Below are positions 1 through 8,972 of a DNA stretch of 8,972 nucleotides, piece by piece (within the stretch, counting starts at the first letter, position 1; each line of letters starts with the position of its first letter). The stretch is from Nitrospirales bacterium (lineage in GTDB: Bacteria > Nitrospirota > Nitrospiria > Nitrospirales > UBA8639). The DNA is taken from positions 1-8,972 of the forward strand of contig BQIY01000062.1 of NCBI GenBank assembly GCA_021604265.1, read 5' to 3'. The notes under the pieces were generated by a model, which ran no database searches, was not told the origin of the DNA, and saw only the letters and a program-made list of their open reading frames with translations. A program made the position numbers and the translations under genes.

Positions 1-2
1 TA

Positions 3-698
3 ATTAATTCGATCTCGATATCAATTGATGTGCTCAACGATTCCATCAACGACGTGTTGAGCCGAATCAACGGTTCAGCAGCCAATGTAACGGCTAGCTT
101 CAATGAGTCAAGACAGCGCATCTCGATTACGGCCAATGACCCGGAAGACCAACTTATATTAAACAGTAACGGCACAGCATTTTTTGCGGCACTCGCAATA
201 ACCGATGGAACATATGATCCAGTACAAACTACGGGAGGAGCCAATAAAACTCAAAAAGGGGTTTCTCCAAAACAAACGGCTGAATTTATAACCTTGCTAC
301 GGGAAGTGGGAGACGCCTTCAATCCGTTATTCGACAACGGGCAATTTGCTGGCGATCCCGGACCATTCTTAGGCGCACTCCGTGCAGATCTTCAGTCAAC
401 CGTTGCAACGGTGTTTGGGACAGAGGGACCACGGTTTAGAAGTCCATTTGGAATTGAATTAGACTTTCGTCCTACATCAAACAAAGTCTTTGACTTTCGA
501 TTATCAGGATCGAACTACAACGCCTTAACCGCCACACTTCGTGAAGACCCCACTCGCATCAATCAACTATTTTTTGGTTCACCCTTTGTCCATGACGATG
601 GCCTCCTTGAATCGATCACAGCCGTACTCGAAAACGTTGACACCAGCCTACGTGATAAACTGGGCGAAACGGGAAGCCTTGTCGACATCTTTGCCTAG
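3..698 (+). CDS. FliD-like flagellar hook-associated (filament cap) protein, C-terminal part
   Basis: This reading frame is open to the window edge, so the gene is 5'-truncated; a GTG at position 30 is probably not the true start. The visible 231 residues begin with a flagellin-hook IN-type segment (SINDVLSRING, then VTASF and a hydrophobic strand pattern ending in GTYDP). They continue with a layout like the FliD C-terminal domain: a helix ending in AFNPLFD, a GDPGPFLGALRADL segment, FGIELDF, and a stretch resembling the family's 'aL..dp..v..lF.g...Gl' pattern (LREDPTRINQLFFGSPFVHDDGLL). FliD proteins cap the growing flagellar filament outside the cell and are exported by the flagellar type III system. 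Another IN-motif hook-associated protein is possible. No flagellar neighbour is visible because the gene sits at the edge. A weak 5-bp hairpin follows the stop, with no T-tract. Confidence 0.6.
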   Translation: MNSISISIDVLNDSINDVLSRINGSAANVTASFNESRQRISITANDPEDQLILNSNGTAFFAALAITDGTYDPVQTTGGANKTQKGVSPKQTAEFITLLREVGDAFNPLFDNGQFAGDPGPFLGALRADLQSTVATVFGTEGPRFRSPFGIELDFRPTSNKVFDFRLSGSNYNALTATLREDPTRINQLFFGSPFVHDDGLLESITAVLENVDTSLRDKLGETGSLVDIFA

Positions 699-882
699 AA
701 TCCTTCTTGTCTCACACCTCTGATCCAGAGACTGACCGCCTAACCATTTCAGACTAAATACCGTAAGACCTTCAAGTGCACCACACAAAAAAGGACAAAT
801 TAGCTCCAGACCACTACGCGCTGACCTTTTCACCGACTCATAATGACCTTGTAACATTTTCAGAGTATGGAAGACTGTCCCT

Positions 883-899
883 CTAGAAAAGAATTCTAG
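883..899. repeat. Short inverted repeat upstream of the DUF547 gene
   Basis: CTAGAA (883-888) and TTCTAG (894-899) are perfectly complementary around a 5-base loop. The stem can grow to 9 bp (880-902) if one G-T wobble is allowed. No T-run follows on either strand, so it is not a convincing terminator. It lies about 40 bases upstream of the DUF547 start, next to a (GA)6 tract at 917-928, and could be a leader hairpin or an operator. It could also be chance. Confidence 0.25.
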
Positions 900-942
900 G
901 GGCACATTACAGGAACGAGAGAGAGAGATTTAACAAGCATCA

Positions 943-1845
943 ATGCACGATGACCTCAGTCATCGCCCAACATATCGAGGCGAACTCTTGCGAACACCGA
1001 CAATCATGAACGCCCTGCATGTCTTGCTTATCACCCCGGTCTTGCTTGCAGGATGTACGGCTATTCCGCAGACCTTTACCCCTGAACAGCCAATAGCTGC
1101 CAGAACCTTTTCACATCGATTCTTTGATACGGTACTTCAAGCCCACGTTCAGGACGGCGTCGTTCAGTATCCAGCCATTGCGCAAAACACCATATTCACC
1201 GAGTATCTTCACCAACTCGATCACATTGCCCCAACTCAACTCCCCACTCCAAACGACCGGCTGGCATTTTGGATTAACGCATACAACGCCTTTGCCATCA
1301 AGGGTATCCTTGATGGATATTCCCCTAAGACCTTCACTGGCCGATACCAGTATTTTGTGAATCAGCGATACGCGGTTGGCGGTGAAACCATCAATCTCTA
1401 TGATTTAGAACGAGGACTCCTCATTCCCAATTTTCGAGAACCCCGCATTCACTTTGCCATCGTGTGCGCATCTCACTCATGCCCGAAGTTGCAATCCTGG
1501 GCATTTACCGGGGGGCAAATCGACGAACAACTGACTGAGAGCGCCAAACAGTTCATTAACGATCCAACACGAAACCATTTCGACCATCAAAAAAACATTG
1601 CCTATCTTTCAAAGATTTTCGATTGGTTTATGGATGATTTTGTCAATCATTCAGGCTCACTCACAAGATACGTGGCTCAATACGTGAATGACCCGAATGT
1701 GGCAGAAGCCTTAACCAATGGACAATATACCGTCCAATTTCTTGAGTATGACTGGAGTCTTAACGGAATTGCTCCAGAAAGCACAAACCTCGTATCACAG
1801 CACGGAGAGACAAGGCCAAGCCAACCGACAAGTCTCAATAAATGA
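943..1845 (+). CDS. DUF547 domain-containing lipoprotein
   Basis: The product is 300 residues from the first ATG, or 279 residues from an in-frame ATG at 1006. The later start places a hydrophobic segment and the lipobox LLAGC (Cys38 in the long form) directly at the N terminus, as in a lipoprotein signal peptide. The earlier start gives an n-region with Arg residues. Neither has a good ribosome site: a GA-rich tract ends 14 bases before 943. DUF547 hallmarks are clear: LAFWINAYNAF at about 107-117, HFAIVCASHSCPKL at 170-183 with conserved His and Cys, FDWFMDDF, and YDWSLN near the end. The biochemical role of the family is unknown; the conserved Cys and His would suit a thiol enzyme, which is speculation. 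The protein is predicted to be membrane-anchored on the outer side of the inner membrane or in the outer membrane. A terminator-like hairpin follows, so it is probably transcribed separately from the bufferin operon. Confidence 0.85.
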   Translation: MHDDLSHRPTYRGELLRTPTIMNALHVLLITPVLLAGCTAIPQTFTPEQPIAARTFSHRFFDTVLQAHVQDGVVQYPAIAQNTIFTEYLHQLDHIAPTQLPTPNDRLAFWINAYNAFAIKGILDGYSPKTFTGRYQYFVNQRYAVGGETINLYDLERGLLIPNFREPRIHFAIVCASHSCPKLQSWAFTGGQIDEQLTESAKQFINDPTRNHFDHQKNIAYLSKIFDWFMDDFVNHSGSLTRYVAQYVNDPNVAEALTNGQYTVQFLEYDWSLNGIAPESTNLVSQHGETRPSQPTSLNK

Positions 1846-1879
1846 CTGTGTGAGTATATTTTTCTTGTAACGCGATACG

Positions 1880-1936
1880 GCTTGCCCGGACTATGCTCGA
1901 AGAATAGGCATAATCCTGGCCGCAAGCATCGATTTT
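1880..1936 (+). terminator. Imperfect terminator-like hairpin after the DUF547 gene
   Basis: Three nested complementary segments form one long interrupted stem: GCTTGC (1880-1885) with GCAAGC (1922-1927), CCGG (1886-1889) with CTGG (1916-1919, one wobble), and TATGC (1892-1896) with GCATA (1908-1912). A TTTT run lies five bases downstream. The bulges and the short, displaced T-run make termination efficiency doubtful. It would fit ending the DUF547 transcript before the bufferin promoter. Confidence 0.35.
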
Positions 1937-1950
1937 GCCGTAGACAGAGG

Positions 1951-1978
1951 GGAACCCAGATACAATCTATTTGTCCCC
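1951..1978 (+). promoter_or_regulatory. Candidate ECF-sigma-type promoter of the bufferin operon
   Basis: GGAACC (1951-1956) is followed after exactly 16 bases by GTCCCC (1973-1978). GGAAC-type -35 elements with a GTC-like -10 about 16-17 bases away are typical of extracytoplasmic-function sigma factors, which are known to control some bufferin operons such as the SigF regulon of Caulobacter. Transcription would start near 1985, giving a leader of roughly 35-40 bases containing the strong ribosome site. A TACAAT box at 1961-1966 resembles a sigma-70 -10, but the possible -35 boxes (TAGACA, TTGCCG) are 14 and 20 bases away, a poor fit. No sigma or anti-sigma gene lies in the window. Confidence 0.35.
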
Positions 1979-2004
1979 GCCTTATACGTTCATTTCACTC
2001 TCAC

Positions 2005-2011
2005 AAGGAGG
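2005..2011 (+). promoter_or_regulatory. Strong Shine-Dalgarno sequence of the bufferin precursor gene
   Basis: AAGGAGG ends 10 bases before the ATG at 2022. It is the best ribosome binding site in the window and decides the start of the precursor gene over upstream in-frame alternatives such as the TTG at 1971. Its strength fits a peptide made in excess over its modifying enzymes, whose own starts have weak sites. Confidence 0.75.
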
Positions 2012-2021
2012 ATTTCTTGTT

Positions 2022-2288
2022 ATGTCAAGCAAAACAATACTTATGGGTGCAGCACTGTCAGGGCTGTTGATTGCATCAGGTTGCGCAACATCACATGACA
2101 GCATGTCCGGGGCACAAATGGCCAAAGGCCAATGTCACGGCGTCAATGACTGTAAAGGTCATGGCGAATGTAAAGGCGTCGGCCATTCTTGCGAAGGCAA
2201 GAATGATTGTAAAGGCAAGGGATGGGTCAGCATGTCCCAAGCCGATTGCGATGCGAAAGACGGGCAATACGTCGCAAAAAGTCACTAG
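2022..2288 (+). CDS. bufA: BufA2-like Cys-rich precursor peptide (bufferin-type metallophore, RiPP precursor)
   Basis: This 88-residue peptide has an N-terminal signal (MSSK n-region, then a hydrophobic stretch at about 5-20) ending in ASGC, with Cys21 in a lipobox-like context. The mature part is Gly/Lys/Cys-rich, with Cys at 38, 44, 50, 57, 63 and 76. The first five each sit in a C-[HKE]-G unit. The NDCKGKGW segment followed by a late DC resembles BufA2-family bufferins. In that family, an MNIO enzyme converts core cysteines into thiooxazole-type groups that bind copper outside the cytoplasm. MNIO (bufB) and DUF2063 (bufC) genes follow immediately, which supports the assignment. A strong ribosome site precedes it and a 15-bp hairpin follows it. 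The lipobox is odd for a family described as soluble and periplasmic. Family membership is judged by eye; the metal and the modifications are inferred. Confidence 0.85.
   Translation: MSSKTILMGAALSGLLIASGCATSHDSMSGAQMAKGQCHGVNDCKGHGECKGVGHSCEGKNDCKGKGWVSMSQADCDAKDGQYVAKSH
2133..2216 (+). repeat. Degenerate tandem C-x-G repeats in the bufferin core
   Basis: Five consecutive units carry Cys-x-Gly at residues 38, 44, 50, 57 and 63 (x is His, Lys, Lys, Glu, Lys), with periods of 6, 6, 7 and 6 residues. At DNA level TGTAAAGG recurs at 2151-2158, 2169-2176 and 2208-2215, suggesting growth by short duplications. These cysteines are the likely sites of MNIO modification or metal binding. Confidence 0.7.
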
Positions 2289-2301
2289 GCCTGAATCTGC
2301 A

Positions 2302-2337
2302 GCCCTTCCTTTTTCCTGGAATGGAGGGAGGAAGGGC
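2302..2337 (+). promoter_or_regulatory. Strong intercistronic hairpin between bufA and bufB
   Basis: The left arm (2302-2316) pairs along its full 15 bases with the right arm (2323-2337), including three consecutive T-G wobbles in the middle, around a six-base loop TGGAAT. It starts 13 bases after the precursor stop codon and ends 36 bases before the bufB ATG. No T-run follows on either strand, so it is not a canonical intrinsic terminator. The position suits an RNA-stabilising or attenuating hairpin that keeps the short precursor transcript abundant relative to the downstream enzyme genes. Confidence 0.6.
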
Positions 2338-2373
2338 ACAGAAAGAAAGGTTCGTCATTCTGCGAGTGTCGTT

Positions 2374-3258
2374 ATGATTGAAACTGCCATTAAAACCGTT
2401 TCGACTTCACAACCAAAGATTGGCGTGGGACTTCGTCCTACTCATTATCCGCACCTGGAAACTTGTCCACAGACCTCGGTGACCTGGTTTGAAGCCATCA
2501 GCGAAAATTATATGGATACCAAAGGACGACCACTCGAAATGCTGGAATTGATTCGTGAGGACTACCCAGTTGCGCTCCATGGCGTTTCATTATCCATCGC
2601 ATCAACCGAAGGACTCCGACCGGAATACTTACAACAACTCAAACAGCTCAAGGATCGTATTGAGCCATGGATTGTGTCTGATCATCTTTGCTGGACCGGC
2701 CTTCGAGACGCCAACCTCCATGACCTGCTGCCTATCCCCTATACAGACGAAGCTCTCGCCTTTCTGCTTCAGCAAGTCGATCAAGTCCAAAATGCTCTTG
2801 GCGGTCATATACTGCTGGAAAACGTCTCAACCTATCTCCAGCCTCCAGGTTCAACGCATACAGAGTGGGAGTTTCTGACCGCACTCGCTAAACAAGCAGG
2901 ATGTCGGCTCCTCTTAGACATCAACAATCTGTACGTCAATGCCATTAATCACCGGTTTGACCCCATCGTCTTTCTTGACGCCATCCCCGCGGACCTGATC
3001 GGACAGATTCACTTAGCCGGCTATACCGACATGGGTACTTATCTCTTTGATACCCACTCGAAACCCGTCTACCCGGAAGTGTGGGAATTATTTTCAAAAC
3101 TGATTGCTCGTATTCCGGAGATACCCGTTCTCATTGAATGGGATGATAACATTCCAGAATTTTCCGTCCTGGAAGCCGAAGCGCGCAAAGCCACACGAAT
3201 TTGGAACTACCATCATGGCAGCACTCACACTGAGCCAATATCAGCATCTATTTTCTAG
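2374..3258 (+). CDS. bufB: MNIO (DUF692) family bufferin-modifying enzyme BufB
   Basis: The protein is 294 residues from the ATG at 2374, the usual MNIO length. The frame extends upstream through bufA in another phase, but only the part from here matches the family. MNIOs are TIM-barrel multinuclear non-heme iron oxidases that oxidise cysteines of RiPP precursors with O2. Family motifs appear in order: FEAISENYM (39-47), HGVSLSI (69-75), SDHLCW (102-107), HDLLPIPYT (116-124), LENVS (148-152), EWEFL (164-168), LLLDINNLYVNAINHRFDP (179-197), HLAGY (213-217), DTHSKPV (226-232) and LIEWD (253-257). Conserved His, Asp and Glu residues in these motifs supply the metal ligands. The usual HLAGH motif reads HLAGY here. 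The ribosome site is weak (GCGAG), in contrast to bufA. The end overlaps bufC by 44 bases, indicating translational coupling. Confidence 0.93.
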   Translation: MIETAIKTVSTSQPKIGVGLRPTHYPHLETCPQTSVTWFEAISENYMDTKGRPLEMLELIREDYPVALHGVSLSIASTEGLRPEYLQQLKQLKDRIEPWIVSDHLCWTGLRDANLHDLLPIPYTDEALAFLLQQVDQVQNALGGHILLENVSTYLQPPGSTHTEWEFLTALAKQAGCRLLLDINNLYVNAINHRFDPIVFLDAIPADLIGQIHLAGYTDMGTYLFDTHSKPVYPEVWELFSKLIARIPEIPVLIEWDDNIPEFSVLEAEARKATRIWNYHHGSTHTEPISASIF

Positions 3259-4030
3259 TGCAGCATGTAGACGAGATCACGAAGCCCCGGACAAACGTCT
3301 TCGCGACTCCATCACTCCCGGAAAGGACCTGACCGCACTTGAAGCGCTAGAAGTCTATCGACGCGGGCATAGGGTTAGACTGACCGAGGCCTTAGGTGAT
3401 ACCTACGAAGGCGTCTGGTGGGTTGCCGGCGATGAAGAGTTTTTTCGGATGGCCAAAGCTTTCATCCAGAGTCATCCATCTCGAACCTATAATCTTTCTT
3501 CATACGGAGAGGAGTTTGCTAACTTTCTAGAAACAACACGTCCCTTTCCAGACCTCCCATTTCTCCCCGACCTTGCCAGATTCGAATGGACATTCAAAAA
3601 TATTTTCCATATGCCGCAACATGAACCGGTATCCCAAGAAACGATCCAAGCGATGACCCAACAGGGGAATATACAGTTTCAATTCGGCCCGTCCGTTCAT
3701 CTCTTTTCTTCGCCATACACCATCTATGATATCTGGAAGCTCCGAGGGACTTGCCATAATCAGCAGCCGCCGACCGACTGGAACCATGGGCAACATCTGT
3801 TGCTCTACAAAAAACATCGTCAGGTTTTTGTAAATACGCTACAAGAAGTCGAACATGGAATTCTTGAACAACTGTTGAAGGGACGCTTGCTAGAAGAGTC
3901 GCTCAATGAAACCATGATCCAATATCCGGACATTCGTCAGACAGAAATTTCTCAATTGTTTCAAGTCATGGTCCACACAGGCATTATTCAACATATCTTG
4001 AGCCCTTCCTCACAAAAAGGCGCTTCTTGA
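3215..4030 (+). CDS. bufC: DUF2063 family protein, MNIO partner BufC
   Basis: The protein is 271 residues from the ATG at 3215, which lies inside the end of bufB; an earlier in-frame start would only add residues translated from bufB sequence. The N-terminal DUF2063 domain is recognisable by YRRGHRVRLTEAL (48-60), VAGDEEFF (70-77), a YNLSSYG segment (92-98) and LPDLARFEW (117-125). In related systems the DUF2063 protein binds the leader or core of the precursor peptide and delivers it to the MNIO enzyme; it is cytoplasmic and has no signal peptide. The C-terminal half (about 155-265), with a winged-helix-like helical part, is less conserved. The gene overlaps bufB by 44 bases and its stop overlaps a TTG start of the radical SAM gene, so the three are likely translated from one mRNA. 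Confidence 0.9.
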   Translation: MAALTLSQYQHLFSSAACRRDHEAPDKRLRDSITPGKDLTALEALEVYRRGHRVRLTEALGDTYEGVWWVAGDEEFFRMAKAFIQSHPSRTYNLSSYGEEFANFLETTRPFPDLPFLPDLARFEWTFKNIFHMPQHEPVSQETIQAMTQQGNIQFQFGPSVHLFSSPYTIYDIWKLRGTCHNQQPPTDWNHGQHLLLYKKHRQVFVNTLQEVEHGILEQLLKGRLLEESLNETMIQYPDIRQTEISQLFQVMVHTGIIQHILSPSSQKGAS

Positions 4031-5067
4031 ATACTGAGCACACCATGCGTTCATCCCTGCATAACATCACCGCCCCAGCCCTCAATCTCTTGCGCCGCCG
4101 TCCCCTCTTGGCCATTTTTGAAGTCACCCTCCGTTGTAACTCTGCCTGTGGATACTGTGACCTCCCGTTAAATGAAGGGCGATATGAAATGAGCCGACAG
4201 GAAATCTATCAGGTCTTTAAGCATCTGTATCAACAAGGACTACGCTATGTCTTAGTCCAAGGCGGAGAACCGCTCCTGAGAAAAGACCTGCCAGAGATCT
4301 TGCATGATCTGGCTGAAATGGGATTTGGGCTGAGTGTGATTACAAACGGGACGAAGCTGACACCAACGCTGATTAATCGTTTGACGTCTATTCCTCTGAA
4401 TATTTCCGTCAGCCTTGACACGCTTGACCGTAAACTTTACAAACACATTCGCGGGGCTAATCAATTACGGCTTGCGCTCAACGGCATTGACGCGTTGACT
4501 GACTACCCGCATCCTAAATACTTGACCTGTATTGTGAGTGAAGCGAATCGCACGCATGTCGTCGACGTCGTGCAGTTTGCTCGAGATCGTGGCTTCATCC
4601 CGGTCGTTGGAGCCTACCATTGGGATATTGAGCGGTACGGAAAAGTCGACTTGACTCTCCAGTACCAAAAATCCACAGCCGTCTCGGTCTTTCAATCTGT
4701 CTTAGATTCCGGACTCGTCCCTCGCGGGTATTTTCGTCAGTACCTGCGCGATAACATCACATGGCTAAGCGGCGGCTCGCTAAATCGATGCGATGCCGGC
4801 CGCTATAGTATCGCCATCGACGCCTCAGGCAACGTCGCCCCCTGCTTAGCGCTCCAACATCACGGCAACCTCTTGACATCATCGCTCGATGACATTCTGT
4901 CGCATTTTGATCAACAAGCCATTCAGCAATGCTCTGATCAGTCTTCATGCAACATGCTCTGCAGCCGTGTCATTGGCTCAACCCTACGTCACCCCATCAA
5001 TGCCCTCCTAACTCCAACTAAACTTGAACCATGTCAACGGAATCACACCGATGCTACTGCAGACTAA
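4027..5067 (+). CDS. Radical SAM/SPASM domain protein
   Basis: The product is 346 residues from a TTG that overlaps the bufC stop, preceded by AAAAAGG six bases upstream. The ATG at 4045 is the alternative start and would give 340 residues. The core motif C37-x3-C41-x2-C44 (LRCNSACGYCD) binds the SAM-cleaving [4Fe-4S] cluster, and QGGEPLLR (78-85) and VITNGT (104-109) are typical barrel motifs. The C-terminal third carries a SPASM-like set: C255-x12-G-x4-C273, then C302-x5-C308-x3-C312, then C336. The first Cys of the canonical CX2CX5CX3C block is replaced by Ile299. SPASM proteins commonly modify ribosomally made peptides (as PqqE and sactipeptide maturases do) or mature other enzymes. No signal peptide is seen. 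The position directly behind bufABC suggests action on the precursor or on a cofactor, but the substrate is unknown. No RRE-like leader-binding domain is obvious. Confidence 0.9.
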   Translation: MNTEHTMRSSLHNITAPALNLLRRRPLLAIFEVTLRCNSACGYCDLPLNEGRYEMSRQEIYQVFKHLYQQGLRYVLVQGGEPLLRKDLPEILHDLAEMGFGLSVITNGTKLTPTLINRLTSIPLNISVSLDTLDRKLYKHIRGANQLRLALNGIDALTDYPHPKYLTCIVSEANRTHVVDVVQFARDRGFIPVVGAYHWDIERYGKVDLTLQYQKSTAVSVFQSVLDSGLVPRGYFRQYLRDNITWLSGGSLNRCDAGRYSIAIDASGNVAPCLALQHHGNLLTSSLDDILSHFDQQAIQQCSDQSSCNMLCSRVIGSTLRHPINALLTPTKLEPCQRNHTDATAD

Positions 5068-5707
5068 CGAACAACTCCCTCTTGCAAGACTGCTCCAATT
5101 CATTGAGCAAGGTGAACGCCTCGCACAAACATGCGCCAAGGCACAAGCTGCATTGGCCCCAGACCTCGGGACCAATCGTTTCTTTCAAGAGCAGGCTCGA
5201 CAAGAAGGGCTGCACGCCTATACCTTTCAGAAAGCCATCTCCTGGATCGCGCCAAGACATCTTGGCGCTTCGCCCTTTACTGACCCCTTTGTGCATTATC
5301 AGCGCCTCCTCGAATCGGCAGTGCGCCATGGCGACTTGTATGAAACCATTTTGGCCGAACAAGTCATTCTTGAAGGCCTTGGAACGGTCACACTTAAAAA
5401 ACTCGAAATTGGCCTCCTTAAACGACAAGCGCCATTTCAACGGCTGCGGCGTGTATTTCTCCAACAAGAAGAAGCCCACTATGGGTTTGGGAATCGCGCG
5501 CTTGAACGGGCCATCGAAAGACATGACGTGACCGAACATGACCTGTATGAACGAGCACCGATGTATCTGCAGTTAGCCGAGTCGATGATTACGATTGGAC
5601 AAGAATTACTGGTCGAGATCTCAGAAGATCCTGATTGGTACGTGTCAGAGTTTCATAAGACATTACCCAATTGGCTCTACCGTTCACGAATTGACGCGGT
5701 CGCATAA
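5051..5707 (+). CDS. Ferritin-like putative diiron protein
   Basis: The protein is 218 residues, almost entirely helical in character, from the ATG at 5051, which lies inside the radical SAM gene (17-base overlap). A TTG at 5024 would add nine residues. The spacing of acidic and His residues fits a four-helix diiron site: Glu19/Glu22 in the first helix, E52-x2-H55 (QEGLH), Glu103 and Glu108 (LAEQVILEGLG), and E140-x2-H143 (EEAHYGFG). The paired ExxH motifs are the main evidence for a ferritin-like or rubrerythrin-like oxygenase or oxidase. A heme-oxygenase-like diiron fold is an alternative. Such enzymes use O2 or peroxide to oxidise small molecules, peptides or themselves. The gene sits in a tight series with a radical SAM and an MNIO gene, so a role in tailoring is plausible but inferred. 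Exact family not recognised. Confidence 0.7.
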   Translation: MLLQTNEQLPLARLLQFIEQGERLAQTCAKAQAALAPDLGTNRFFQEQARQEGLHAYTFQKAISWIAPRHLGASPFTDPFVHYQRLLESAVRHGDLYETILAEQVILEGLGTVTLKKLEIGLLKRQAPFQRLRRVFLQQEEAHYGFGNRALERAIERHDVTEHDLYERAPMYLQLAESMITIGQELLVEISEDPDWYVSEFHKTLPNWLYRSRIDAVA

Positions 5708-5735
5708 CGCAGAACGAGGAAGAAACGAGAAACGT

Positions 5736-6431
5736 ATGATCTGGGTCATCATACCCACATTGAACGAAGAACGGGCCTTACCAGCAACATTACAATCCGT
5801 ATTTTCTCAATCAGGAAAATACCAGGTGATTGTCGTTGATGGAGGCAGTACGGATCATACACAACACCTTATCGCCCACGATCCACGCCTGACACTCTTA
5901 ACAGCCTCAAGAGGCCGAGCGTCACAGATGAATGCCGGAGCCGAGCATGCGTGGCGCCTCAGGCAATCATGCAACGATTGGCTCCTATTCCTTCACGCCG
6001 ATACCATGCTTCCAACTGATGCCTTCCGACAATTATATCAGTTACATGCGCAACCAGATTGCCAGGCCGGTGGATTTGCACATCAATTTTCCGGTAATGA
6101 CTGGAGACTCCGCTTTATCTCCTGGCTAGATAATTTTCGCTGCAATAAGTCACATATTATCTACGGAGATCAAGCACTCTTTGTCCGGCAAGGCCTCTTC
6201 GAACAAATTGGGAGGTTCCCCAAGCAGCCAATCCTTGAAGATGTGGCATTCGGCAATACACTCCTGCACTACACCGTCCCTCTTCTCCTTCCCTCACCTG
6301 TGGTCACCGATGCCCGCAAATTTCTTCGTATGGGAATCTGGAAAAGTTTGACCAGAGTCTTACTGATCATCTTACATGTTGAATACGGACTTCCGACTCT
6401 CACTCCAGCATTTTTTCAAGATATTCGCTAA
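5736..6431 (+). CDS. Family 2 glycosyltransferase, TIGR04283-like
   Basis: The protein is 231 residues from the ATG at 5736, preceded by purine-rich sequence (GAGGAAGAAACGAGA) and starting 28 bases after the diiron gene. It is a GT-A fold transferase: IIPTLNEE (5-12) and VIVVDGGSTD (31-40) form the nucleotide-sugar site, RGRASQMNAGA (59-69) and FLHADT (85-90, with the Asp of the DXD-like motif) follow, and GDQALFV (144-150) with LEDVAF (167-172) supplies the acceptor-side acidic residues. This order and the short length match the group NCBI names TIGR04283, found near radical SAM genes and in arsenosugar-type clusters. Its usual partner (TIGR04282/DUF2064) is not in the window. There is one hydrophobic stretch near the C terminus (about 207-213) and no clear membrane anchor. 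It may glycosylate the peptide or a small molecule; the acceptor is unknown. Confidence 0.88.
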   Translation: MIWVIIPTLNEERALPATLQSVFSQSGKYQVIVVDGGSTDHTQHLIAHDPRLTLLTASRGRASQMNAGAEHAWRLRQSCNDWLLFLHADTMLPTDAFRQLYQLHAQPDCQAGGFAHQFSGNDWRLRFISWLDNFRCNKSHIIYGDQALFVRQGLFEQIGRFPKQPILEDVAFGNTLLHYTVPLLLPSPVVTDARKFLRMGIWKSLTRVLLIILHVEYGLPTLTPAFFQDIR

Positions 6432-6792
6432 CACGCGCAATTCAGCAAGTCACCTTCATCACACCATACGCCATCGATTCCTCTCAAAATAGGCCGTCCG
6501 CAACCTCATGGTCCAAGGCACCTTCAGTTCTGCGCCCCCTCCCTTTTCCATGAAAAAAACAAAATCTCGCACAATGTTCACATAACCTGCTACAACATTC
6601 ATCGATTCGTGATCCGCAAAGGACGACCTCCTCTCCGACCATAAATCCAATACAGTAAATACAGAGAATTGAACCACTGAAAGTAATTTGTAATAAAGAA
6701 TGAATATACAAGAAAAACCAGCAGAGGGTTAAGAAATAGATAAAGAGAAACCGATAAAGACCGAAAACAAGGCAAGAGATAGGAACTTAGCA
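6432..6792. other. Gene-free interval after the glycosyltransferase
   Basis: No coding region is supported in these 361 bases. From about 6640 the plus strand becomes A/G-rich and contains short GATAAAGA repeats (6739-6746 and 6753-6760). The minus-strand frames here owe their Leu/Ser/Phe-rich translations to that skew. No clear intrinsic terminator follows the operon. A weak sigma-70-like pair, TTGAAC (6669-6674) and TAATAA (6691-6696) with a 16-base spacer, could serve the next ORF, but the match is poor. Confidence 0.4.
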
Positions 6793-7038
6793 ATGAGCTC
6801 AGCAAACGACTTTTCAGCTTTTCTTCGAGACTTTCATGATGTTGACTTGAATCACTACACGTGCTTTGCCGGAGAATTCCGTGATCAACGGCTCGAAGCG
6901 GGAGCCATGGCGGAGGCAGGGTTTTGGAATACCGTCGTCAATCTCTGTATTGACGAACGACTACGGCGAGAAGGCGAAGTCCGTAGATTAGAATATATGT
7001 ACCGCACCGGAGTCGATCTAGAGGAAACAGAAGATTAA
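6793..7038 (+). CDS. Small acidic hypothetical protein
   Basis: This is an 81-residue ORF with an AGGA ribosome site eight bases before its ATG. It has no signal peptide and no membrane segment. It is rich in Glu, Asp and Arg, with Cys24 and Cys52, a central AEAGFWNTVVNLCIDERLRREGEVRRLEYMYR stretch likely to be helical (about 40-71) and an acidic tail (EETED). I do not recognise a family. It stands alone between two gene-free stretches, 361 bases after the operon, on the same strand. The ribosome site and balanced composition favour a real gene; a chance ORF cannot be excluded. Confidence 0.55.
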   Translation: MSSANDFSAFLRDFHDVDLNHYTCFAGEFRDQRLEAGAMAEAGFWNTVVNLCIDERLRREGEVRRLEYMYRTGVDLEETED

Positions 7039-7514
7039 CCGGAATTGACAGTCTCAGCCCCTCACCCCAACCACCCGCTTACAACCCATCCCCGGCACGT
7101 GCATTCAAGTGACAACCCAAACGGCGAATCTCGATAGACGTGTTCTCAAATGCCTCAACTTCTATCTCTGAAAAAGGAGAATGTCCCATTTTACTTACGG
7201 ACTAAGTCATCAATGTTCCTGAAAATCTAAACTAATACAAATAGAGACAGGTGAACATGCAGGGGATAACTCAAGACAAAAAGTATGATTAATCAAGTAG
7301 CTTGACCACGTTATGTTGGTTCAAGCGTCACACTCGAACGTACAGCTAGTCATGTTTGACAACGATACTTCTTTCCGCTTCCAGTATGTTGAATATACCT
7401 ATCTATAGAGAATCCCAATAAGTTCCAGTCAAGCCTGCATGGATAACCCAGCGTAATTACCCATGTCAAACATTGGAAGTCGCTTGAAACGGCTATAGAC
7501 ATACGATACCCTCA
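7039..7514. other. Gene-free interval between convergent genes
   Basis: No credible gene is visible in these 476 bases. The only ORF with a purine-rich lead (ATG at 7181) encodes 13 residues and has an SD one base from the ATG. A bulged hairpin, GCTTGACCA (7300-7308) pairing with TGGTTCAAGC (7317-7326) around an 8-base loop, is the most notable structure, but no T-run follows on either strand. A terminator for either convergent gene is not evident. Confidence 0.4.
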
Positions 7515-8972
7515 TTATCCAATATACATACTTCTCAATCGTCTGAACATTGCAAACGCAAGGAGGTAAATGGTTAGGGCAATCATACAAGTCACTTGAA
7601 AACCGAAATAAATCGAGAGCAGGACACTCAGTAATCCTCCAACGACCGTAAATAATCCATTCAATCCCCACGCCCACGCAACGGCCCCTTGTGGCATACC
7701 CTCTATAGCTAAGATGCCTAAGGGAAACGGCATTCCAAGGAAAAATCCGATCGGAAACAACAGACCGGAAGTAACCAGTATCCGGACCCATATCTGCGAA
7801 GCCATGAAAATATCAAAGACAAAAGGATGAATGAAAAGAATGAGACCCCCCATAATACCAATACCTGCAAAAGGCCATATCCAGCGATGCGTGACGGTCA
7901 CATTCAAGTGACTTGAGGACAGACTTCCAATGCCTGCAGCTAAGAGTAACGTAAAAATAACGGTCGAGTACGTATAAAGGGGATATCCAATCAACTTCAT
8001 AAATATGTGGATAAAGATTAATTCTAAAATGATAAAGCCGGCTCCAAGACAAGAGAAATAGACGATGGCATTTTTTTTCATCGGCCAGTTGGTTTTTCCA
8101 AGGTCAGAAAACCATAAAGGTAACAAAATAAAGAGGGCAGCGAAAAATATCGAAACACCTCCAGTCACAATAAGATGAATGATGTCCATGGGGACAGATT
8201 GCCGAAGCTGTGAATTCAGCAATCCAGCTGTCGATGAATTTAAAAACACCTGAGGATCAGCATTCACCACGTCAATATACTTTCTTAGAAAATTGAAAAA
8301 CGGCTGATTATCGGTTGTCGGCAGAACTTGAAACGGCACATTAGACTCAACCCCATCGGGCAAGCTGCCATTATAAAAATCAGAAGAAAGAAAACTCTCC
8401 TCAGGCTGTAAGGGATTTTCAACAAGACGACTTTTTATTGCTGCAACCCCGACAAGATTCATAATTTTGTCTAATTCACTCTCTGTCCAGGGTTGCATCT
8501 TGATAAGAACGGTTGGAAGGTTATCCATGAGCCTATCGGCACGTTCGAATACCACAACATGCTTTTGGAAATCCGTAAATCCTAACTGTTTCCATGCACG
8601 CGCTGCGGTTGTGATCATCCTGGGATATACATGATGATTCATATGCAAAATACCATTTTCGGATAAATGCCCAAAATATTCTTTATAGGCTTCAAGCGTT
8701 TGCAAGTAATTGGGATTCATCGCCCCAGACCCTGATGCGATGCTTGAGCTCGTATAATTACTGAAGATCTGAATAATATCGTACCGCTCTTTGCTTGCTC
8801 GCAAAAAACTTCGCCCCTCTCCCACGGTGGCCTGAACGTTGGGATGGGTAAAGAGGTTCCCGATATAATCAGCATATCGGGTTTTACCTAATCGAACCAC
8901 TGTTTCCACCATCTCAATCGCATCAACATGACTAGCTCCATACGCAAGGGCAGCTTTAGTCTCTTGTCCCCC
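7515..8972 (-). CDS. Membrane-fused spermidine-synthase-like (SAM-methyltransferase fold) protein, C-terminal part
   Basis: The frame stays open to the window end, so the N terminus is missing; 485 residues are visible. The fragment begins inside the spermidine-synthase-like domain: GGQE (nucleotide-binding loop), HVDAIEM (acidic strand end), GEGRSFLRASKERYDII, and LQTLEAYKEYFGHLSENGIL. It continues with the PTTDNQPFF motif typical of the fused form, then about seven hydrophobic helices from residue 262 to the end (with GMPFPLG and AWAWGLNG). These large inner-membrane proteins bind an aminopropyl or methyl donor by homology, but their substrates are mostly unknown, and true polyamine synthesis should not be assumed. 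The gene is convergent with the plus-strand genes and shows no link to the bufferin operon. Confidence 0.85.
   Translation of the reverse strand, partial: GGQETKAALAYGASHVDAIEMVETVVRLGKTRYADYIGNLFTHPNVQATVGEGRSFLRASKERYDIIQIFSNYTSSSIASGSGAMNPNYLQTLEAYKEYFGHLSENGILHMNHHVYPRMITTAARAWKQLGFTDFQKHVVVFERADRLMDNLPTVLIKMQPWTESELDKIMNLVGVAAIKSRLVENPLQPEESFLSSDFYNGSLPDGVESNVPFQVLPTTDNQPFFNFLRKYIDVVNADPQVFLNSSTAGLLNSQLRQSVPMDIIHLIVTGGVSIFFAALFILLPLWFSDLGKTNWPMKKNAIVYFSCLGAGFIILELIFIHIFMKLIGYPLYTYSTVIFTLLLAAGIGSLSSSHLNVTVTHRWIWPFAGIGIMGGLILFIHPFVFDIFMASQIWVRILVTSGLLFPIGFFLGMPFPLGILAIEGMPQGAVAWAWGLNGLFTVVGGLLSVLLSIYFGFQVTCMIALTIYLLAFAMFRRLRSMYIG

Follow-up and report, generated by a model that had tools for sequence, protein, structure and literature searches.

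Does a tightly packed gene run beside a bufferin operon form a single peptide-tailoring pathway? This question is raised by a stretch of 8,972 bases from a Nitrospirales bacterium (assembly GCA_021604265.1, contig BQIY01000062.1, positions 1 to 8,972; hereafter the window, meaning the whole stretch analysed, GC about 40–53%). Open reading frames (ORFs) and profile scans place six genes in the window in the order and at the coordinates given by an earlier note on this DNA: the bufferin genes bufA, bufB and bufC (bufABC), followed by genes for a radical SAM/SPASM protein, a predicted diiron protein and a glycosyltransferase (GT). The note had proposed one pathway acting on one peptide, with a separate pathway that only shares the promoter as its alternative. 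Comparison with related loci and genomes (handles L and G, respectively) revealed that the two gene groups occur independently, that a syntenic locus exists without bufABC, and that a promoter-like element recurs. Thus, we concluded that the window quite probably holds two units, an old cassette and a lipo-bufferin operon, under one stress promoter, and that these share regulation and setting rather than a substrate. The features on which this argument rests are the following.

850..877, plus strand: promoter-like element of extracytoplasmic function (ECF) type, TGTAACR-N16-GACTR, ahead of the DUF547 gene (GTAACR-N16-GACTR match; homologous site in L001 at 492)
943..1845, plus strand: DUF547 lipoprotein gene (PF04784, 98.3 bits against a cut-off of 27; by alignment, start probably ATG 1006)
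1866..1893, plus strand: ECF-type promoter-like element ahead of bufA (GTAACR-N16-GACTR match)
2022..2288, plus strand: bufA2, bufferin precursor with six core Cys and a lipobox-like Cys21, a predicted lipo-bufferin (NCBIfam BufA2 NF050166, 68.9 bits against a curated cut-off of 60)
2374..3258, plus strand: bufB, MNIO bufferin maturase (NCBIfam MNIO_BufB NF050167, 347.1 bits against a curated cut-off of 310; PF05114, 336.8 bits)
3215..4030, plus strand: bufC, DUF2063 partner protein of the MNIO enzyme (Pfam PF09836, 66.5 bits against 27.2)
4027..5067, plus strand: radical SAM/SPASM protein gene, part of the older cassette (PF04055 and PF13186 above cut-off; likelier start ATG 4045)
5051..5707, plus strand: gene for a predicted ferritin-like diiron oxygenase-type protein, core of the older cassette (conserved ligand-type residues and predicted fold of aldehyde-deformylating oxygenase, ADO)
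5736..6431, plus strand: family-2 GT gene, core of the older cassette (TIGR04283, 200.3 bits against 182)

The junctions are as tight as had been read: bufB and bufC overlap by 44 nucleotides (nt), the radical SAM and diiron genes by 17 nt, and the GT gene starts after a gap of 28 nt. The junction between bufC and the radical SAM gene had been described as a 3-base overlap with a TTG start and needs correction, as TTG 4027 gives 4 nt, and ATG 4045, 14 nt past bufC, is the likelier start because all 17 relatives in the alignment (A2) begin at or after Met7 of the window protein. One transcript is plausible from the short junctions, from the element ahead of bufA and from the lack of a further copy of the pattern separating bufC from the radical SAM gene; an internal promoter there would, according to the note, have spoken against a single pathway. 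A single gene run with such junctions also favours the idea that the three enzymes tailor BufA; the 17-nt overlap of the radical SAM and diiron genes is also found in L001, which is free of bufABC.

Gene content was compared among 80 loci, the best matches obtained when GTDB contigs were scanned once with the diiron alignment (true total at least 80), with radical SAM proteins below 200 bits (e.g. in L030), BufB below 60% and BufC below 40% identity left out of the count. Among these listed loci, 49 of 80 show the arrangement radical SAM–DUF547–diiron–GT and 15 DUF547–diiron–GT, while DUF547–bufABC–radical SAM–diiron–GT was found in four and radical SAM–DUF547–bufABC–diiron–GT in two; the other ten comprise nine further arrangements, some cut by contig ends. 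The lasting unit is the DUF547 lipoprotein with the diiron protein and the GT, usually accompanied by the radical SAM protein. bufB was seen in only 7 of the 58 loci that carry radical SAM, diiron and GT genes, and the other 51, the nearest relative of the window among them, are without bufB in the fetched stretch; restricting the count to the 48 of these loci whose sequence extends 3 kb or more upstream of the diiron gene and 0.9 kb or more past it leaves the number with bufB at 7. The triplet thus occurs routinely without bufABC, an outcome that the note itself had named as evidence against one pathway on one peptide, and enzymes and precursor do not co-occur across genomes in the manner of an extended operon for a ribosomally synthesized and post-translationally modified peptide (RiPP). 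Instead, the alternative of a separate pathway behind a shared promoter fits better. As for gene order around the cassette, L058 reads molybdenum oxidoreductase, DUF547, bufABC, radical SAM, diiron, GT, and L040 reads sigma factor, promoter element, molybdenum oxidoreductase, TVP38, FAD oxidoreductase, DUF3047, DUF547, diiron, GT.

Trees of the diiron, radical SAM and GT proteins of the fetched loci identified the Nitrospirales metagenome-assembled genomes (MAGs) NPIRA01 (L001/G001) and NPIRA04 (G002) as nearest relatives. L001 is collinear with window positions 353–1778 (73% DNA identity) and 4075–6430 (81%) and the 2.3 kb that contain bufABC in the window correspond to 266 nt in L001; the window BufB as query found no match in the G001 or G002 genomes, and the MNIO-like match that G001 did yield was weak (29.9 bits, cut-off 310). 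Across 245 Nitrospirota genomes, the diiron protein was matched in 38, twice only weakly, and BufB passed its cut-off in 16. Within the NPIRA01 family (48 genomes), the diiron protein was detected in 23, a close BufB in 10 and a cassette-type radical SAM protein (E 1e-40) in 11, all of the latter two groups falling inside the 23 diiron genomes; an eleventh BufB match (G273, 44% identity) was treated as a separate lineage. Four family genomes carry the radical SAM gene without detected bufB (G001, G002, G005 and G268, the last with bufC at a contig edge, so that bufB may be missing from the assembly only), and three (G014, G016 and G018) carry bufB without a detected cassette-type radical SAM gene, both of which count against one pathway and against tailoring of BufA. 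Proximity points the other way: the close bufB shares the diiron contig in nine of ten genomes, eight times within 2 kb and once (G003) about 5 kb away, whereas in G018 it lies on another contig. Most of these genomes are MAGs whose completeness is not stated, so that a gene counted as absent may simply lie in an assembly gap.

In a tree computed without the G269 sequence, the 11 close BufB cluster as a single clade that is separate from 8 Nitrospira BufB. On the diiron and GT trees (28 rows, made up of the window with 23 loci of the family type and 4 further ones; midpoint roots; without L080, in which a contig end truncates the diiron gene, and L165, which duplicates the L056 cassette), adjoining bufABC needs four changes, with two rows that have bufABC elsewhere uncounted. 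This is compatible with one bufABC gain followed by losses or moves, the root not being fixed, and bufABC probably entered, and was sometimes lost, between the promoter and the older cassette. The radical SAM tree groups L050/L060 with L005 and L003, apart from L058/L059/L061, their neighbours by diiron and GT. Because L058 and L050 adjoin on the latter trees yet fall into different radical SAM clades, the radical SAM gene was probably exchanged while bufABC stayed, which again argues against a dedicated tailoring enzyme.

As for bufABC itself, the curated scores of BufA2 and BufB and a DUF2063 partner gene directly after the MNIO gene, with the 44-nt overlap, mark a further BufA2-type bufferin operon, here set in an older cassette under its likely promoter. 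The bufC product remained under the NCBIfam HvfC equivalog cut-off (47.7 against 142), and a Pfam scan of ten window ORFs found no DoxX gene; DoxX is described as a core member of published bufferin clusters in the accessible part of PMC12452194, which also reports lipoprotein signals predicted in about 16% of Buf2. A membrane-anchored bufferin is likely here, because BufA of nine out of nine distinct relatives listed (L003, L004, L050, L058–L061, L080 and L087) has Cys at the lipobox-like position plus the six core Cys, which suggests a lipo-bufferin clade. A solitary BufA2 without lipobox was additionally noticed at 1616–1891 of L187 (G009); it scores over the NCBIfam cut-off, the element stands upstream of it, and no MNIO gene was recognised among the ORFs in the 3 kb around it.

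The promoter-like element links the two units. Its pattern, GTAAC[GA]-N16-GACT[AG], was derived from the sequence upstream of bufA in relatives, and its two matches in the window compare with a mean of 0.01 in shuffled sequence (0 of 200 shuffles reach two). L001 carries the element before DUF547 and again before the radical SAM gene, at a distance of 152 nt; it likewise precedes the radical SAM gene in L005 and the diiron gene in L065, L066 and L072, where no bufABC was seen. A full element precedes bufA in L003, L004, L058, L059 and L080, and a one-mismatch form stands ahead of bufA in L061 and of bufB in L068. Searching the 48 family genomes for TGTAACR-N16-GACTR returned 103 sites, compared with 80 for the reversed pattern. 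Among the 102 examined (one, ahead of the radical SAM gene of G005, was left out, and some are orthologous copies in related genomes), 89 were intergenic, 80 of those within 250 nt of a same-strand gene start; in contrast, only 4 of 33 control sites (from 30 loci, of the 80 found) were intergenic and one was near a same-strand start (Fisher p about 2e-15). The pattern is therefore separated from its control by position, not by raw number.

The other genes behind the element provide evidence independent of the bufA loci. In all, the downstream families comprise YHS-like (17 sites), diiron (6), ArsM-like (6), BufA (5), glutaredoxin-like (5), MsrB (5), MsrA (5), TVP38 (4), TPP enzyme (3), thioredoxin-like (3) and molybdenum oxidoreductase (3) families, with two cases each of cytochrome P460, TetR, carbonic-anhydrase-like and an unnamed exported protein, plus single cases. 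One example each of eight families was scanned against Pfam, and PMSR, SelR, methyltransferase, glutaredoxin/GST_N, cytochrome P460, AhpC/TSA and TetR passed the cut-off, the YHS match falling just under it (29.9 against 30.3); we named the carbonic-anhydrase-like and TPP families, and assigned export signals to MsrA and MsrB, by our own reading of the sequences. The L058 molybdenum enzyme was nearest to sulfite dehydrogenases and below every cut-off shown, so that "MsrP-type" is a loose label. A shared element ahead of Msr genes and of an MNIO operon, as expected of a sigmaF- or RpoE2-like regulon, is present here. Counting on the very stretches that were scored brought up a variant, TGTAAG-N16-CGACT, with 13 sites, 11 of them intergenic, with TVP38 downstream in 7 of these 11 (the Nitrospira-type loci L010, L015, L024, L028, L031, L044 and L047), versus a single site, not intergenic, for its reversed control.

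The distribution of a candidate sigma factor agrees with this picture. An ECF sigma (E 1e-30) was detected in 22 of the 23 diiron genomes versus 8 of the 25 other family genomes (Fisher p 4e-6), with its gene 5–9 kb from the diiron gene in G009, G013, G267, G270, G271 and G273 and about 35 kb away on the same contig in G010. In G009, the one case scanned, a zf-HC2 protein follows as candidate anti-sigma factor. Taken together, element and gene set look like an ECF-sigma envelope-stress regulon, and shared regulation of bufferin and cassette is likely, while a shared product or single tailored peptide is unlikely.

Several observations weigh against two units under a common promoter. The raw excess of sites over the control is modest (82 versus 45 in diiron genomes and 21 versus 35 in the others), 13 of the 102 sites lie inside ORFs, sites at the 3' end of sigma genes (L182 and L197) fall in coding sequence, and the Fisher values overstate independence, since the genomes are related. 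As the pattern was chosen from bufA loci, its presence ahead of their bufA is not independent evidence, and ahead of bufA in L050, L060 and L087 (G018) it is degenerate, in two-mismatch forms; when one 201-nt upstream stretch was shuffled 500 times, 40 of the shuffles equalled or bettered the match. G002 has the cassette and no sigma match, and four genomes without a sigma match carry 7 motif sites. Scans of Nitrospira loci located no strict-type element upstream of cassette genes, and the search of N. moscoviensis (G017) gave zero sites. Finally, among diiron genomes, the radical SAM gene accompanies bufB in 7 of 10 genomes versus 4 of 13 without it (p 0.10, or 0.04 if G268 is counted as buf-bearing), and the largely constant position of bufABC next to the cassette could also be explained by joint function.

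With these points in mind, we propose the following mechanism for the two-unit arrangement. The first unit would be an old Nitrospirota cassette of DUF547 lipoprotein, diiron protein and TIGR04283 GT, usually with the radical SAM/SPASM protein, which elsewhere appears near a TVP38-type membrane protein, a MerA-like FAD oxidoreductase, DUF3047 and a sulfite-oxidase/MsrP-type molybdenum oxidoreductase. The second would be the bufABC lipo-bufferin operon, placed downstream of the cassette promoter and ahead of the cassette's radical SAM or diiron gene in one Nitrospirales family and missing from other members. Upon envelope oxidant or metal stress, the ECF sigma factor would read the promoter; MsrA, MsrB and perhaps the molybdenum enzyme would repair periplasmic methionine sulfoxide; BufB and BufC would oxidise BufA cysteines to give a membrane-anchored, copper-binding bufferin; and the radical SAM protein, diiron oxygenase and GT would make or modify an envelope compound, probably not a peptide.

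The cassette proteins themselves give some hints at their chemistry. The DUF547 protein, with the motif HF[AS]IVCASxSCP, has an invariant lipobox Cys38 and Cys175/Cys180 in the 15 rows of its alignment (A3), and its structure model is confident; Foldseek found no solved structure matching this model at E 0.001. In the radical SAM protein, C37, C41 and C44 of the CxxxCxxC motif and further C255, C273, C302, C308 and C312 are invariant (A2). The diiron protein reached no Pfam or NCBIfam cut-off and is assigned because of its conserved ligand-type residues (E22, E52/H55, E108 and E140/H143, invariant in alignment A1) and its predicted fold; the model (pLDDT 86) had ADO as best PDB matches (TM about 0.8, 16% identity), pointing to a ferritin-like fold with diiron-type ligands. 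Our best guess, held with low confidence, is that the cassette makes an oxygenated, glycosylated small molecule. Tentatively, this cassette, widespread in Nitrospirota including Nitrospira, could represent an undescribed pathway to an oxygenated, glycosylated envelope-protective compound, induced by the ECF sigma factor together with Msr enzymes under periplasmic oxidant or metal stress, with the lipo-bufferin acquired downstream of the shared promoter to serve as a metal-buffering module. Literature searches, with most subscription-journal papers outside their coverage, found no paper joining DUF547 and radical SAM with Nitrospira or with glycosyltransferase, none pairing any two of DUF547, TIGR04283 and DUF3047, and none combining bufferins, Msr genes and ECF sigma in Nitrospirota.

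Among the other explanations, an arsenosugar-like pathway, in which the GT acts with co-regulated ArsM/ArsS and the cassette product is organoarsenic or similar, fares best and is still rather unlikely. The TIGR04283 family, whose cut-off the GT passes (200.3 against 182), is named arsenosugar biosynthesis glycosyltransferase, the element precedes an ArsM-like methyltransferase gene in six genomes (L191, L220, L265, L279, L294 and L296), and ArsS (TIGR04167) lies about 1.5 kb downstream of the ArsM-like gene in all six. However, the cassette radical SAM protein reaches only 29–32 bits against the ArsS cut-off of 300 (G003, G008, G010, G268 and G269), ArsS is over cut-off in 44 of the 48 family genomes versus 23 for the diiron protein, and the one methyltransferase scanned stayed below every cut-off shown.

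That bufABC sits in the cassette by chance, without useful shared regulation, we consider unlikely. Such hitch-hiking would account for the 13 of 23 cassette genomes in which bufB was not found, for its location on another contig in G018 and for the degenerate element ahead of bufA in L050, L060 and L087. It is harder to reconcile with a single clade of 11 close BufB, most of them beside the cassette, with the bufA of L003, which has its own element copy although bufABC there lies about 2 kb upstream of DUF547, and with a solitary BufA2 in G009 also standing behind the element. Least of all do we expect that the radical SAM protein, diiron protein and GT tailor BufA after BufB and BufC into an oxidised, radically modified and glycosylated metallophore, a very improbable outcome in view of the loci and trees described above and of a radical SAM domain match that begins at residue 32, leaving scant room for an N-terminal peptide-recognition domain.

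Outside the two units, the window holds the following.

Left window end: end only of a flagellar-hook-like gene (weak Pfam/NCBIfam matches only)
6793..7038: small conserved ORF (no Pfam match for the window copy)
7515..8972, minus strand: incomplete gene for a membrane-type protein (weak spermidine-synthase-like matches)

The small ORF belongs to a family of about 80–110 amino acids found just downstream of the GT gene in 11 of the 80 loci listed (L001, L003, L004, L050, L058–L061, L064, L066 and L072), where two copies often flank a small lipoprotein-like gene.

Returning to the preferred reading of two units behind one stress promoter, MNIO metallophores and methionine-sulfoxide repair appear to be under common ECF-sigma control in distant Nitrospirota, besides Caulobacter and Haemophilus/Neisseria, and this common control suggests that oxidant or thiol damage, rather than copper alone, is a setting for bufferins. 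A conserved radical SAM/diiron/GT/DUF547 cassette of Nitrospira and relatives is marked out at the same time, together with suggested inducing conditions. For genome mining, the locus is a caution that tight junctions beside a RiPP operon do not make the neighbours tailoring enzymes.

Comparison with known systems places the locus as follows. The diiron protein resembles cyanobacterial ADO in predicted fold and length (TM about 0.8) and in its ferritin-like E, ExxH, E, ExxH pattern, which we take to match the ADO ligands; it differs in sequence (16% identity), with no match to the ADO family in Pfam/NCBIfam and no ADO in a PDB sequence search, and no adjacent acyl-ACP reductase gene was noticed, no search having been aimed at one. 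With Buf2 (BufA2) operons, as described in the accessible part of PMC12452194, the window shares a precursor with six core Cys and an export signal, an MNIO enzyme and a DUF2063 partner. Here, in contrast, the set is without a detected DoxX gene, embedded in another cassette and placed behind an ECF-type promoter-like element; in the same accessible part, published Buf2 clusters are without sigma/anti-sigma genes, which occur in Buf1 clusters, and the main text has radical SAM only in its reference list and glycosyltransferase nowhere. The Haemophilus RpoE2 and Neisseria SigE regulons resemble the putative one here in that, as far as the accessible part of PMC7907618 describes them, an ECF sigma factor with a small anti-sigma (similar to the ZAS-motif ones) governs msrAB together with a UPF0276/DUF2063/DoxX cluster, in H. 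influenzae under HOCl; they belong to another phylum, and a radical SAM/diiron/GT cassette is not described in that part. The likeness extends to the Caulobacter sigmaF regulon, in which, according to the accessible part of PMC3511200, two DUF2282/DUF692/DUF2063 operons and a YedY-type oxidoreductase depend on an ECF promoter (GTAACC-N16-CGAA). Compared with what is accessible of that system, the Nitrospirota loci have GACTR as the -10-like part, a zf-HC2 protein (one case scanned) rather than DUF1109 as candidate anti-sigma factor and BufA2 as the bufferin, and their putative regulon includes the radical SAM/diiron/GT/DUF547 cassette.

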